Shown here: positions 4,040 through 50,455 of the stretch, one piece after another
Layout of the letters: each line of letters starts with the position of its first letter
Position numbering within the stretch: the first letter of the stretch is position 1
From: Nesterenkonia sandarakina
Lineage (GTDB): Bacteria > Actinomycetota > Actinomycetes > Actinomycetales > Micrococcaceae
Assembly: GCF_013410215.1 (NCBI RefSeq)
Contig: NZ_JACCFQ010000001.1
Location: forward strand, 62,001 to 126,000
Reading direction: 5' to 3'
Length of the DNA stretch: 64,000 nucleotides
The notes under the pieces: generated by a model
What the model was told of the DNA's origin: nothing
Seen by the model: only the letters and a program-made list of their open reading frames with translations
The model's database searches: none
Made by a program: the position numbers and the translations under genes

Positions 4040-5368
4040 ATGAGCGAGCCGGCACAGGCGCAGGACACCTCGGCCGAGACCCCGTGGCCGCTGAGCACCT
4101 ACTCCGGCAAGCTCAAGGCCCACATCGAGGCCGCGCCGCCCACCTGGGTGGAGGGCCAGCTGGTGGAGTTCAACCTGCGCAACGGCAACGCCTGGATGAC
4201 CCTGCGGGACCTGGAACAGGAGGTCTCCTTCTCCACCGTCGCCTGGCGGAACGTGGCGGGCAGCCTCAACGGCACCGTCCAGCCCGGCTCCCGGGTGGTG
4301 GCGCTGGTCAGGCCGAACCTCTATGAGAAGTCCGGGCGGCTCTCCCTGGTGGCGCATCAGATGAAGCCGGTGGGGCTGGGCGATCTGCTGGCGCGGATCG
4401 AACAGCTCAAACAGCGCCTGGCCGCAGAGGGCCTGTTCCGGGCGGACCGGAAGCAGCCGCTGCCGGTGCTGCCGGGCCGGATCGGACTGATCACCGGACG
4501 GAACTCCGACGCCAAGAAGGACATCCTGCGCAACACCCACGCCCGCTGGGCCGCGGCGCAGTTCGAGATCCGCGAGGTCGCGACCCAGGGACCCAGCGCA
4601 CCGCAGGAGGTCGCCGCGGCCCTGGCGCAGCTCGACGCCGACCCCGCGGTGGAGGTCATCGTGATCGCTCGCGGCGGCGGGGCGCTGGAGGAGGTGGTGC
4701 TGCCCTTCTCCGATGAACGCCTGATCCGCGCGGTGGCCGCGGCGCAGACCCCGGTGGTCTCCGCCATCGGGCACGAGGCCGACCGTCCGCTGCTCGATGA
4801 GGTCGCCGATATGCGCGCCTCCACCCCCACCGGGGCTGCGAAGCTGCTGGTGCTCGATGAGGCCCAGGAGCGCGAGGCGCTCACCAACGCCCGGGCTCGC
4901 ATGTCAGCCGGGGTCGAGCGGGTCATCGGGCGCGAGTCCGAATGGTTGGCGACGCTGCGTTCCCGGCCGGTGCTCGCCCAGCCGCAGGACATGATCACCG
5001 GACGCGCCCAGGAGCTGATGATGCTGCGGCGTCGCTCGCTCTTCGGCATGGAGACCGCGGTGCGCCGCGGCACCGACTGGATCACGCAGACCCGGGCGCG
5101 AGTCCGGTCGCTCTCCCCGCAGTCCACCCTGGACCGCGGCTACGCGGTGGTCCAGACCCGCGGCGCCGCCGGCTGGGACGTGCTGCGCGATGCCGGCACC
5201 GTCAGCCCTGGAGACGAGCTGAGCGTCATGGTCGCCTCCGGCGAGCTGACCGCTCGTGCCGAACAGATCTACCCCGAGGACCGCACGGCCGCCCACGCGG
5301 CGACCTCAGCGCAGGCCGAACCTGCTGCGACGACCCCAGACACCCAGAACCGAGAGGCAGCCCGATGA
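4040..5368 (+). CDS. xseA: exodeoxyribonuclease VII large subunit
   Basis: XseA is the catalytic subunit of exonuclease VII, which degrades single-stranded DNA from both ends and contributes to mismatch and cross-link repair. The 442-residue protein begins with an OB-fold (TWVEGQLVEFNLRNGNAW, residues about 30-110), then the catalytic domain with the conserved GLITGRNSDAKKDIL, VIARGGGALEEVV and SAIGHEADRPLLDEVADMRA segments, a long helical arm, and the terminal region LSPQSTLDRGYAVV. An AAGGCAGGA sequence precedes the ATG. It overlaps xseB by four bases (ATGA) and is divergent from the membrane protein at 3944 across a 95-bp shared promoter region. Confidence 0.97.
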   Translation: MSEPAQAQDTSAETPWPLSTYSGKLKAHIEAAPPTWVEGQLVEFNLRNGNAWMTLRDLEQEVSFSTVAWRNVAGSLNGTVQPGSRVVALVRPNLYEKSGRLSLVAHQMKPVGLGDLLARIEQLKQRLAAEGLFRADRKQPLPVLPGRIGLITGRNSDAKKDILRNTHARWAAAQFEIREVATQGPSAPQEVAAALAQLDADPAVEVIVIARGGGALEEVVLPFSDERLIRAVAAAQTPVVSAIGHEADRPLLDEVADMRASTPTGAAKLLVLDEAQEREALTNARARMSAGVERVIGRESEWLATLRSRPVLAQPQDMITGRAQELMMLRRRSLFGMETAVRRGTDWITQTRARVRSLSPQSTLDRGYAVVQTRGAAGWDVLRDAGTVSPGDELSVMVASGELTARAEQIYPEDRTAAHAATSAQAEPAATTPDTQNREAAR

Positions 5369-5640
5369 TCGACGACGCAAGCACCCCGCAGGCTTCGGCC
5401 TCGAAGTCCACCGAGTTCAGCACCGCGCAGACCGAGGACATCGAGACCATGAGCTATGAGCGCGCCCGCGAGGAGCTCGTCTCGGTGGTGACCAAGCTCG
5501 AGAACGGCGGCGCCCCGCTGGAGGAGTCACTGGCCCTGTGGCAGCGCGGCGAGGCGCTGGCCGACCGCTGCGAACGCTGGCTCGACGGTGCGCGGACCCG
5601 GCTGGAGGAGGTCCGTGAGGAGCTCACCGAGGACCGCTAG
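5365..5640 (+). CDS. xseB: exodeoxyribonuclease VII small subunit
   Basis: The 91-residue small subunit folds as a helical hairpin that binds the XseA arm and is needed for exonuclease VII activity. The core MSYERAREELVSVVTKLE...PLEESLALWQRGEALADRCE is typical; an unusual 28-residue Ser/Thr-rich leader precedes it. The ATG at 5365 overlaps the xseA stop codon (ATGA), which supports the long form through translational coupling; an internal ATG before SYERAR is the alternative start. It ends 14 bases from the convergent anion transporter stop. Confidence 0.95.
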   Translation: MIDDASTPQASASKSTEFSTAQTEDIETMSYERAREELVSVVTKLENGGAPLEESLALWQRGEALADRCERWLDGARTRLEEVREELTEDR

Positions 5641-5653
5641 ACCCGCAGCATCC

Positions 5654-7144
5654 TCATACGCCGCTGGCGAGCACGACAGGCTGCCACACCAGGATGAAGA
5701 CCGAGATCAGGCTCAGCGCGATGATGTTCATCCAGAACCCGGCCTTGACCATGTCATCCATCTCCAGGTACTCCGAGGAGAACACCGCCGCGTTCGGCGG
5801 GGTCGAGATCGGAAGCATGAACGCGCAGCTGGAGGTCAGGGCGACCAGCGCCATGATCGCGAAGGGGTCCACCCCCATGCCCAGGGCCAGTCCGACGCTG
5901 ACCGGGATCAGCATGTTCGACACCGCGGTGTTCGACATCACCTCGGTCATGAACAGCACGATCGCTCCGAGCACGACGACGATGATGACATAGGGCAGGA
6001 CGTCGAGACCGCCGAGGATCTCCCCGAACCATGGGGTCAGGTCGGAGTCGTCGAAGGCGGCCGCCAGTGAGAGTCCGCCGCCGAAGAGCAGCAGGATGCC
6101 CCAGGGCAGTGCCTGCATGTCCTTCCAGACCAGGATTCCCCCGCGCCTGCCGTCCTCATCGGTCTGCCGGGCTCGCAGCAGGAACATCGCGGTGGCGCCG
6201 ATCATCGAGACCGTCGTATCTGTGAGCGGGATCCCCCACTCCTCGGGGAGGAACCCGATGGTCATCCACATGGCTCCGACGACGCCGAAGATCGTCAGGA
6301 CCATCTTCTCCTCATAGGACATGGGCCCGAGCTCGCGGAGCTGCTCCTGGGCGAAGTCCGGTGAGATCTCGGCCTGCGCGACGAGTCGGAACTGGACCTT
6401 GGAGAGGTAGAAGTAGAGCAGCACCAGCAGGATCACGGTCAGCGGTGCCGCGAAGACGAACCACTGCGCGAAGCTCACGGTGATGTCGAAGTGCAGGGAG
6501 GCCTGGGCGGCGAACACCGCATTCGGCACCGAACCGATCAGCGTCGCCAGGCCGCCGATCGAGGCGGCGTAGGCGATCGCCAGCAGCAGACCTTTGGCGA
6601 ACTTCTTCAGGCCCTCCTCATCGAAGAATCGCTTCTCCTTGACCTCTTCGATCAGCGCCAGGCCGATCGGCAGCATCATCAGCGCCGTGGCCGCATTGGA
6701 GATCCACATCGAGAGCCCGGCCGTTGCCAGGATCACCCCGAGCATCAGGCGGTTGCCCTTGGTGCCCACCATCCGGATGATGCTCATGGCGATCCGCTTG
6801 TGCAGGTTCCACTTCTGGATGGCCAGGGCGATGGTGAAGCCGCCCATGTACATGAACACGATCGGATTCGCGTAGGCCATCGCGGCGGTCTCTTCGTCGG
6901 TGCCACCGGTGAGCGGGAGCAGAAAGAGCGGAAGCAGCGAGGTCGCCGGGATCGGCAGCGCCTCGGTGATCCACCAGGCGGCGACCCACAGCGTGACGGC
7001 GAGCACCGCCCTGGGGGCGTCCTCGAGACCGGTGATCGCCGGGACGAAGTAGAAGACGGCGAAGAGGGCCGGGCCCAGCACCAGTCCTACGCGTCTTCGG
7101 CTCAGCAGGGGTGATCGCTCGGTTCTGGCCTCGATGGTCTCCAT
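5654..7144 (-). CDS. DASS/SLC13 family sodium-anion symporter
   Basis: A 496-residue transporter of the divalent anion:Na+ symporter family (dicarboxylates such as succinate or malate, citrate, or sulfate). About 12 hydrophobic segments are seen, with the two inverted-repeat signatures: SNAATALMMLPIG in the first half and SNTAVSNMLIPVSVG in the second, followed by the ISTPPNAAVFSSE loop. These SNT-type motifs bind sodium and the substrate carboxylates. The TPPNA context is closest to bacterial dicarboxylate carriers, but sulfate transport cannot be excluded. Start METIEARTERSP at 7144; no strong SD. It is transcribed alone, converging on xseAB. Confidence 0.9.
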   Translation of the reverse strand: METIEARTERSPLLSRRRVGLVLGPALFAVFYFVPAITGLEDAPRAVLAVTLWVAAWWITEALPIPATSLLPLFLLPLTGGTDEETAAMAYANPIVFMYMGGFTIALAIQKWNLHKRIAMSIIRMVGTKGNRLMLGVILATAGLSMWISNAATALMMLPIGLALIEEVKEKRFFDEEGLKKFAKGLLLAIAYAASIGGLATLIGSVPNAVFAAQASLHFDITVSFAQWFVFAAPLTVILLVLLYFYLSKVQFRLVAQAEISPDFAQEQLRELGPMSYEEKMVLTIFGVVGAMWMTIGFLPEEWGIPLTDTTVSMIGATAMFLLRARQTDEDGRRGGILVWKDMQALPWGILLLFGGGLSLAAAFDDSDLTPWFGEILGGLDVLPYVIIVVVLGAIVLFMTEVMSNTAVSNMLIPVSVGLALGMGVDPFAIMALVALTSSCAFMLPISTPPNAAVFSSEYLEMDDMVKAGFWMNIIALSLISVFILVWQPVVLASGV

Positions 7145-49297: not shown

Positions 49298-49374
49298 CGA
49301 ATCCCCGGGGCGAGAACAGGTGGAACGACGCGTGAATCCGTGCCCATAACCCCCGTCTCTGCCCCACGGATGCC
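49298..49374. repeat. 77-bp palindromic element, left copy, flanking the AbiEi/DUF559 gene
   Basis: This copy is degenerate: its arms (core GGGGCG-N6-GGTGGAA on the left, GCCCCACGGATGCC on the right) are only partly complementary. It aligns without gaps over 77 positions with the right copy at 50379-50455, matching at about 49 positions, including GGGGCGA, CAGGTGGAAC and GATGCC. It lies between the gene's stop (49382) and the tatD start. Confidence 0.65.
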
Positions 49375-49381
49375 TGATAGG

Positions 49382-50305
49382 TCACCCTCGACGGTGTGCA
49401 ATGACGCCGCGCACCTGCCGCACTGCGGATGCGAACCCCTCAGCGTGATCCCGTGCGTTGAAGCGCAGCACGATCCAGCTTGCGGCGAGAAAGACGTTGT
49501 CCCGCCTCTGATCAGCCATCGCCTGCTCTGCGCTGAAATGGGTCGCACCCTCGTATTGGATGGCAATCTTCAGATCCGGATATCCGAGGTCGGCGCACCG
49601 CGCCCGCAGGTCCCCAGGGTGCACAGAGACTTGAAGCGAAGGTTCGGGCAGCCCGGCACGCACCAGAGACAAGCGCAGCCGGGTTTCCGCGGCCGAGTCA
49701 GCTCCCACGCGGACGTGCCGCACAGCCTCCAACGCCCGACGTCGACCCGGGACGCCGTTCGCGCGGGCCAGGGTCTCGTGGAGCTCGCGGATCGTCGTAT
49801 ACGGTTCTCGCCTCGCCTCGAATCGCGGATAGGGATGACGCACCAGGTGATCACCGAAGCAGATCAGCTCCACCTCCCCGAGCTGCCCGGCGAGGTCCAA
49901 CCAGGTTCGCGCCGGGCTCGCCACCCGGGCCCCGGCGATCATCCACTGATCCTCAGCGTCGGCGGCCTGCCGGTGACTGATCACCTCGAGGCGCCTGATT
50001 CGACGATTCGAACCCCGCGGCTGAGTGAGATGGATGCTCTCGCGCTCCCCCAACCTGCGCGGCAGGTCCCATCCGTAGAGTCGGGCCGCCGTGGCGTGCG
50101 AGACCCAACACTCCGGCAGCATGCGGGCGAGCTCCAGTGCATCGCTGAGGGAACCCTGCCCTGAAACTGCGGTGTACAGTCCCTGGGTCAGGCGGCGAAC
50201 GTCGCGACGACGGACCCGCTCCTCCGAGAGTTCGAGCGAGCGAAGATCGGCACGTGTGAACGCCCGGTCCTGGAGATTCGGAGGAAGCTGCTGCGGACGC
50301 CGCAT
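49382..50305 (-). CDS. AbiEi-like / DUF559 (Vsr-fold) protein flanked by palindromes
   Basis: A 307-residue protein. The N-terminal third looks like the winged-helix AbiEi-antitoxin type (FTRADLRSLELSEERVRRRD, LTQGLYTAV, WVSHATAARLYGWDLP); the C-terminal third has a DUF559/Vsr-like PD-(D/E)xK nuclease outline: Glu207 (AAETRLRLSL), Asp239 and Asp244 (ADLGYPDLKIAIQYEG), and a later QRRDNVFLAASWIVLRF. In active relatives the IEY(D/E)G glutamate is expected; here it is Gln250, so catalysis may be weakened. Such proteins are common in actinobacteria but undescribed functionally. No partner toxin gene is present. The gene lies between two related 77-bp elements, one 74 bases before its start and one 7 bases after its stop. 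No clear SD. Confidence 0.7.
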   Translation of the reverse strand: MRRPQQLPPNLQDRAFTRADLRSLELSEERVRRRDVRRLTQGLYTAVSGQGSLSDALELARMLPECWVSHATAARLYGWDLPRRLGERESIHLTQPRGSNRRIRRLEVISHRQAADAEDQWMIAGARVASPARTWLDLAGQLGEVELICFGDHLVRHPYPRFEARREPYTTIRELHETLARANGVPGRRRALEAVRHVRVGADSAAETRLRLSLVRAGLPEPSLQVSVHPGDLRARCADLGYPDLKIAIQYEGATHFSAEQAMADQRRDNVFLAASWIVLRFNARDHAEGFASAVRQVRGVIAHRRG

Positions 50306-50378
50306 GGGGAACAGCCTGACCTAGTTCTGGGGTCCCTCCGAGTTCTCCACAGTCCCAGGCCCACAGAATCGAGATCTC

Positions 50379-50455
50379 GGCATCGCTGGGGCGAATTCAG
50401 GTGGAACAGGCCCTGCATGTGGGGCTATTCCACCCGTTTGCGCCCCAGCGATGCC
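50379..50455. repeat. 77-bp palindromic element, right copy, near-perfect long hairpin
   Basis: Perfect outer arms of 15 bp (GGCATCGCTGGGGCG, 50379-50393, with its complement at 50441-50455), then six unpaired positions, then perfect 7-bp arms (GGTGGAA at 50400-50406, TTCCACC at 50428-50434), then five more pairs around the centre TGCATGT. It can fold as one long hairpin. It lies between fadD (stop 50479) and the AbiEi/DUF559 gene and may also end fadD transcription. A homologous but degenerate copy lies at 49298-49374. Confidence 0.85.

Follow-up and report, generated by a model that had tools for sequence, protein, structure and literature searches.

The closest described system is that of the RAYT genes and their REP repeats. 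RAYTs are tyrosine transposases of the HUH (Y1) type, REPs carry a GT(A/G)G head beside a palindrome, and there are usually more than 100 repeat copies per genome. Two further systems are relevant through their proteins: AbiE, a type IV toxin-antitoxin system in which AbiEi has an adjacent AbiEii (DUF1814) toxin gene, and the EDxHD homing endonucleases, which cut the allele that lacks the gene and copy themselves in. The available part of one study describes RAYT genes as having two REP flanks, co-evolving with REPs, correlating with REP number and outpacing their neighbours in evolution (PMC2817692). In the accessible portions of two others, RAYTs are vertically inherited single-copy genes (PMC8049555) and REPs are 20–40 bp long (PMC3733652). 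According to excerpts of two papers on the protein parts, AbiEi and Rv2827c bind 23-bp inverted repeats (PMC7319586), and I-Bth0305I dimerises on nearly 60 bp of DNA (PMC3943268).

The window analysed here is a 64-kb stretch of Nesterenkonia sandarakina DNA, in which an earlier note had described a DUF559/AbiEi-type gene between two homologous 77-bp palindromic elements. Its features are as follows.

49298..49374, no strand: downstream palindrome, 77 bp, decayed, 7 bp past the gene end (covariance model R1, 69.5 bits)
49382..50305, minus strand: intact 307-aa gene for a protein with a predicted AbiEi-fold DNA-binding part and EDxHD/Vsr-fold nuclease (ORF, profiles, predicted structure)
49385..49702, minus strand: EDxHD nuclease domain, residues 202–307, with E207, D239, H256 and D265 (predicted structure)
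49709..50305, minus strand: AbiEi antitoxin fold, residues 1–199 (predicted structure)
50379..50455, no strand: promoter-side palindrome, 77 bp (folding; covariance model R1, 78.6 bits)
50379-50393 / 50441-50455, no strand: outer 15-bp arms of the promoter-side palindrome (perfect pairing)
50400-50406 / 50428-50434, no strand: inner 7-bp arms of the promoter-side palindrome (perfect pairing)

The gene has a TatD-type DNase gene on one side and an AMP-binding ligase gene on the other. Its assignment to the DUF559/AbiEi type stands, as that of a weak relative: Pfam DUF559 matches the protein with an E-value of 0.047, under the family cut-off, and the PADLOC AbiEi profile with 1.6e-11. In the predicted structure (pLDDT 90) the chain is matched by AbiEi (3–199) and EDxHD/Vsr (202–307) folds, and the top fold match of the nuclease part is the homing endonuclease I-Bth0305I. 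The predicted catalytic residues are kept in 88–98% of 103 homologues (E207 in 101, D239 in 99, H256 in 91 and D265 in 98). Pfam matches included no transposase profile for the window protein (E <= 10) or for 19 members of the family (E <= 0.01), and judged by its predicted fold the protein is not a transposase. No AbiEii (DUF1814) toxin gene was found beside the gene at the window locus.

Both 77-bp elements lie where the earlier note had placed them and, aligned without gaps, agree at 51 of their 77 positions (the note had counted about 49), compared with a mean of 21 and a maximum of 39 in 20,000 shuffled pairs. The right copy had been called a near-perfect hairpin and the left one decayed, and folding agrees: the right element, whose outer arms form 15 perfect pairs and inner arms 7, folds at -32.6 kcal/mol (z -8.15; equalled by 0 of 200 shuffles), whereas the left has a z of -0.51 and is equalled by 61 of 200. 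Covariance model R1, built from nine element copies, finds no third element in the window. The claim that the elements occur nowhere else therefore holds for the 64 kb and fails for the 3.0-Mb genome (G000), in which R1 finds nine places, seven of them outside the window; pattern and nucleotide searches also revealed copies beyond the window. The elements are thus not confined to the window locus.

Of 30 Nesterenkonia genomes, 27 carry members of the protein family, as do all 41 genomes searched of a second genus (g29), often in several copies; a phylum-wide sample at a strict E <= 1e-25 gave just 17 of 149 genomes. Spread by phages or plasmids was considered and rejected, the records being three phage and five plasmid entries, all below 40% identity. 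A 33% homologue lies at 4986-5798 of MT837503.1, an entry of 6.7 kb labelled ‘Bacteriophage sp.’ that came from human faeces. No described role was found for the family, and the matched-palindrome arrangement is absent from the literature searched (mostly at title and abstract level, with few subscription papers and no bioRxiv).

Of 133 profile matches in the fetched loci, 103 were distinct homologues flanked by 220 bp or more, and their flanks were compared; the remaining 30 were duplicates or had too little flank. Each left flank was scored against the right flank with a threshold of 18, and representatives were genes below 60% identity (n = 66). The earlier note had made its proposal depend on elements being found beside other family members, and matched pairs are present: the threshold was reached in 64 of 103 Actinomycetota homologues and 44 of 66 representatives, the first figure being inflated, and the second hardly so, by ten g29 genes fetched since a relative was already positive (2 of the 66 representatives). 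The score stayed below 18 in the other 39 genes. Among controls, the threshold was reached by 12 of 4290 mismatched left-right pairs and by none of 21 TatD flanks; equally spaced windows gave 13 of 526, a count inflated by windows from loci picked for holding these palindromes. The shuffled and mismatched pairs rule out chance similarity or local duplication of the flanks. The window gene scores only 14.5 because its left copy is decayed.

Both the flank match and a palindrome test were passed by 51 of 103 genes and 34 of 66 representatives. These include 20 of 42 genes in Nesterenkonia, 13 of 15 in g29 (G065 included) and 3 of 4 in Actinomadura; the rest are from other actinobacteria, including G093 (2 of 2), a genome that belongs to another class. 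None of eight genes from six distant genomes (G067, G082, G097, G123, G134, G195) and one Kocuria locus had matched palindromes. When palindromes were searched beside homologues without the window motif, a long one was found on one or both sides of many genes, and its sequence varies between genes yet agrees across the two sides of one gene. Over the 103 genes it lies a median of 62 bp upstream of the start codon (an approximate figure, as start codons were placed from the profile match) and 7 bp downstream of the stop, and its median length is 65 bp (middle half 58–73 bp). Palindrome scores of at least 10 were reached on either side of 62 of 103 genes and on both sides of 31, compared with 2 of 42 TatD windows and 5 of 156 background windows.

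A single motif common to the whole family was rejected: R1 has no match in 28 genomes outside Nesterenkonia, because each gene carries its own palindrome. For the same reason the search for GGGGCG-N6-GGTGGAA that had been proposed would miss pairs beside other genes, since their sequence differs. Palindrome similarity tracks protein similarity, with a Mantel rho of 0.31 for 23 Nesterenkonia genes and 0.76 for 13 g29 genes; in each set this was reached by 0 of 999 permutations. When only g29 pairs below 60% identity are counted, rho drops to 0.03. Values for the DNA-binding and nuclease parts were.305 vs.253 in Nesterenkonia and.755 vs.754 in g29, which does not separate the two.

Read by eye, palindrome ends are commonly CATC/GATG. 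The outer 9–15 nt look alike between units of one genus and the inner part gene-specific; this outer sequence reads CATCGAGTGGGC in Nesterenkonia, CGCCGAGnGTG in g32 and AGCGCGAAC in some g29 units. The right flank of a G065 homologue (L159) has tandem half-palindromes (GGCCACTTTTGGTAAATCG-like) in place of a single palindrome.

Within Nesterenkonia, R1 matches were found in 12 of 30 genomes and in 0 of 28 outside the genus, with strict filters that lose some weak matches. Genomes were called gene-positive when a homologue of at least 52% lies at the TatD gene or within 2 kb of it. Elements occur in all eight gene-positive genomes and in 4 of 22 others (Fisher p 8.5e-5, a value that, like those for g29 below, is indicative and overstates independence, as repeat-bearing genomes may be kin). 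The four exceptions, G002, G014, G015 and G019, have from one to about three places each. In G019, whose TatD is 86% identical to that of the window, the gene is missing at the TatD site and one recognisable element is kept.

The survey of elements in Nesterenkonia covered nine genomes and 80 elements, which were placed at twelve sites and the two gene flanks; five places in G002, G014 and G015 and a few elements seen later fall outside this count. Many sites are common to several species. There are two main arm types, broadly matching the type of the gene’s own flanks, with the exceptions that G011 is mixed and that type-I elements occur in G016 (three sites), G027 (one) and G021 (D1, D2). 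Arm similarity is 0.737 within a genome, 0.706 at the same site and 0.663 for neither, and loop similarity is 0.524 at the same site, 0.468 within a genome and 0.457 for neither. In 1000 label shuffles the observed mean was never attained for either arm comparison or for loops at the same site, and was attained once for loops within a genome; the shuffles concern each mean, not the gap between 0.737 and 0.706. Tandem elements are present at L193 (three) and L187 (two). The lone elements are mostly at shared sites, and little recent movement is seen.

A gene named by eye as an alpha/beta-hydrolase also lies between two window-type elements about 1.08 kb apart (L009 1887-3040, G000:C1:127886-129039), and the same gene has elements on both sides in G016, G021 and G027.

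One fixed position with no empty sites, which the earlier note had named as the outcome that would speak against it, is not what we found. Grouped by common flanking ORFs within 1.6 kb, the 41 Nesterenkonia loci make up 15 neighbourhoods, and there are empty sites and both orientations of the gene. At the TatD/ligase junction the gene has one orientation in G000, G018, G012 and G011 and the opposite one in G016, G021, G022 and G027; in G002 and G020 the unit found there has a different palindrome, and no unit is present in G019, G003, G026, G028 and G023, among others. The phoU–gpmA interval holds a lone palindrome in four genomes (G000, G011, G016, G027), a decayed one in G019 and nothing in G012, G018 and G021; in G002, G020, G014 and G015 it is occupied by a whole unit, whose palindromes differ in type from the lone ones. 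At this site G022 has an unexplained insert of about 1.6 kb (L243) where its relatives are empty, filled by a unit or left with a lone palindrome.

The glpX site was read in nine g29 genomes, a set that excludes the unit-bearing G207, G214, G218, G220, G224, G226 and G232. One unit type occupies it in G065, G238 and G206, and another, with the gene inverted, in G234. In G222 the gene is truncated but has palindromes, G230 retains a lone palindrome, and neither type is present in G235, G243 and G210. Those last three loci (L269, L270, L272) hold a palindrome of another kind, in which a loop of about 36 nt, CGGCTATCTCCTCGTACCTCGTCGATTTGATGCCG, is conserved inside differing stems; it looks like a separate repeat family. 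At the DUF503/purL site, 8 of 11 genomes read have the unit and 3 a palindrome of another type without the gene. The idea of a selfish unit is supported in part: filled, lone and empty sites and both orientations of the gene occur, but neither a clean insertion junction nor a target-site duplication turned up at the sites compared, where intergenic flanks are too diverged to read.

Dispersed copies were also counted in g29, as half-sites of one palindrome type. There are 20–84 copies in 11 of the 41 genomes, 1–4 in three and none in 27, and a reversed control pattern had no match in any of the 41. A homologue at least 60% identical to that type’s gene is present in nine genomes, all within the 11 repeat-rich ones, and a tenth, G222, has a remnant; the 60% cut was set after the list was seen, with G224 and G214 at 59% and without half-sites. 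At least 20 half-sites thus occur in 10 of 10 genomes with the gene or remnant vs 1 of 31 others (Fisher 9.8e-9 with the remnant counted as a gene, 1.6e-7 without). The exception is G230, with 31 half-sites and no homologue above 39%. In G065, G238 and G206 the gene’s own flanks are of AGCGCGAACTGGCAG type, unlike the counted repeats, and only the outer AGCGCGAAC is common to both. Among G065’s 17 element loci, an element at the homologous place was found for six in 20 fetched G238 loci and for three in 20 G222 loci; 10 of 17 G065, 12 of 20 G238 and 15 of 20 G222 loci had no element in either other set, and since G238 and G222 loci were fetched in part, the sharing figures are a lower bound.

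Taken together, we consider it near certain that the gene and its palindromes form a conserved unit, and the protein likely acts on the palindromes. The window’s palindrome-gene-palindrome arrangement is probably one member of a large actinobacterial system that is REP/RAYT-like with an unrelated protein. The best single reading, at roughly even odds, is that the nuclease spreads or maintains the palindromes. Put in full, we propose, with a probability of about 0.5, that Actinomycetota harbour a class of selfish palindromic elements whose AbiEi-EDxHD nuclease co-evolves with a gene-specific palindrome and both spreads and homogenises its copies across the genome; jointly with this, a REP/RAYT-like system would have arisen a second time, from homing-endonuclease and antitoxin parts. 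Binding, cutting and movement of the unit are what we infer. The AbiEi part would bind each arm of about 24–27 bp as one of two inverted half-sites, and arms of about 27 nt appear to fit the 23-bp inverted-repeat binding of AbiEi. The promoter-side palindrome may double as an operator. The nuclease would nick or cut at the palindrome, and repair off another copy could convert, multiply or re-insert palindromes, at times with the whole unit. Lone palindromes would then be non-autonomous copies, or scars of gene deletion by recombination between the two flanks.

Two other roles for the protein can be set against this, and we consider either improbable. As a site-specific DNA-binding autorepressor or chromosome organiser, it would have the scattered palindromes as selected binding sites and a nuclease that serves elsewhere, e.g. 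in defence, with arms that co-change as sites track a drifting specificity. AbiEi-type proteins do autoregulate via inverted repeats, according to the available part of PMC7319586, one palindrome lies in the promoter region, and many Nesterenkonia sites are common to several species, with loops most alike at the same site and arms within the same genome. However, it is hard to see an operator role for the downstream palindrome, which lies a median of 7 bp past the stop; tandem copies occur at L193 and L187, many g29 element sites have no counterpart among the sister-species loci that were fetched, one unit type can take the place of another at a single site, and the nuclease residues E207, D239 and D265 are kept in 101, 99 and 98 of 103 homologues. 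The protein might instead be a free-standing homing endonuclease that has the palindrome as its target, cuts gene-less alleles or lone palindromes and copies the unit in, a doubtful account even though its top fold match is such an enzyme. The swap of unit types at the glpX site would suit it, as would the lone palindromes (G000, G011, G016, G027) and whole units (G002, G020, G014, G015) between phoU and gpmA, but there the two are of different types. In addition, the gene’s own genome keeps further cognate sites without the gene, and empty sites without any palindrome occur.

We think it very unlikely that a different agent, be it a RAYT, an IS200/IS605 transposase or some other repeat family, owns the palindromes and that the gene simply gathers at the hot spots between genes where they lie. 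The gene does occupy intergenic spots where other palindrome types are also present, but flanks match gene by gene, and palindrome similarity tracks protein similarity (Mantel 0.31 and 0.76). The palindromes are GC-rich hairpins, often at gene ends, as ordinary transcription terminators would be; however, only 1 of 80 elements has a four-T run within 12 nt on the 3' side or a four-A run on the 5' side. Between phoU and gpmA a separate terminator-like hairpin is present with the element in G011, G016 and G027 and without it in G012, G018 and G021 (none was seen in G000), and one palindrome copy sits upstream of the gene. On the run count and the separate hairpin, terminator identity was rejected, and we leave it a negligible probability.

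If the proposed class of selfish elements is real, the REP-plus-nuclease arrangement arose from unrelated enzymes, and the family is a possible source of many nucleases with long, readable recognition sites. Since the palindromes give each protein’s likely target, specificity, cutting and spread are directly testable with dozens of protein-site pairs.

The analogy with RAYT/REP that the earlier note drew holds for the cognate palindromes and for co-occurrence, but not for the protein fold. As with RAYT/REP, two cognate palindromes flank the gene (64 of 103; 51 of 103 with the palindrome test) and change with it, and cognate repeats are abundant where the gene is (the exceptions being G230 and the four Nesterenkonia genomes with 1–3 places). 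Two more likenesses rest on the accessible portions of the RAYT literature: palindromes form tandem clusters, and the gene evolves faster than its neighbours (52–74% identity to the window copy, compared with 80–88% for TatD, in seven genomes). Unlike a RAYT, the protein combines AbiEi and EDxHD/Vsr nuclease parts and no HUH/Y1 domain was found, so it is not a RAYT. The palindromes, at 58–73 bp (middle half), exceed the 20–40 bp given for REPs in the available part of PMC3733652. Their copy number, at nine places in G000 and at most 84 half-sites in g29, stays below the >100 copies of REPs. The predicted nuclease shares its EDxHD/Vsr catalytic fold and residues with I-Bth0305I and Vsr; unlike them, it is fused to an AbiEi-like DNA-binding part, is intergenic in the loci read and has cognate palindromes on both sides. 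With the AbiEi antitoxins (AbiE; Rv2827c) it shares the predicted AbiEi fold, but the window gene has no toxin partner beside it and has a C-terminal nuclease, and the palindromes, unlike AbiEi antitoxin sites, lie on both sides of the gene and are scattered through the genome. Because the HUH enzyme is absent, and no known kind pairs this enzyme with cognate palindromes, we set the arrangement apart as a new kind; on a stricter view, the REP-plus-nuclease kind could also cover AbiEi-EDxHD units.
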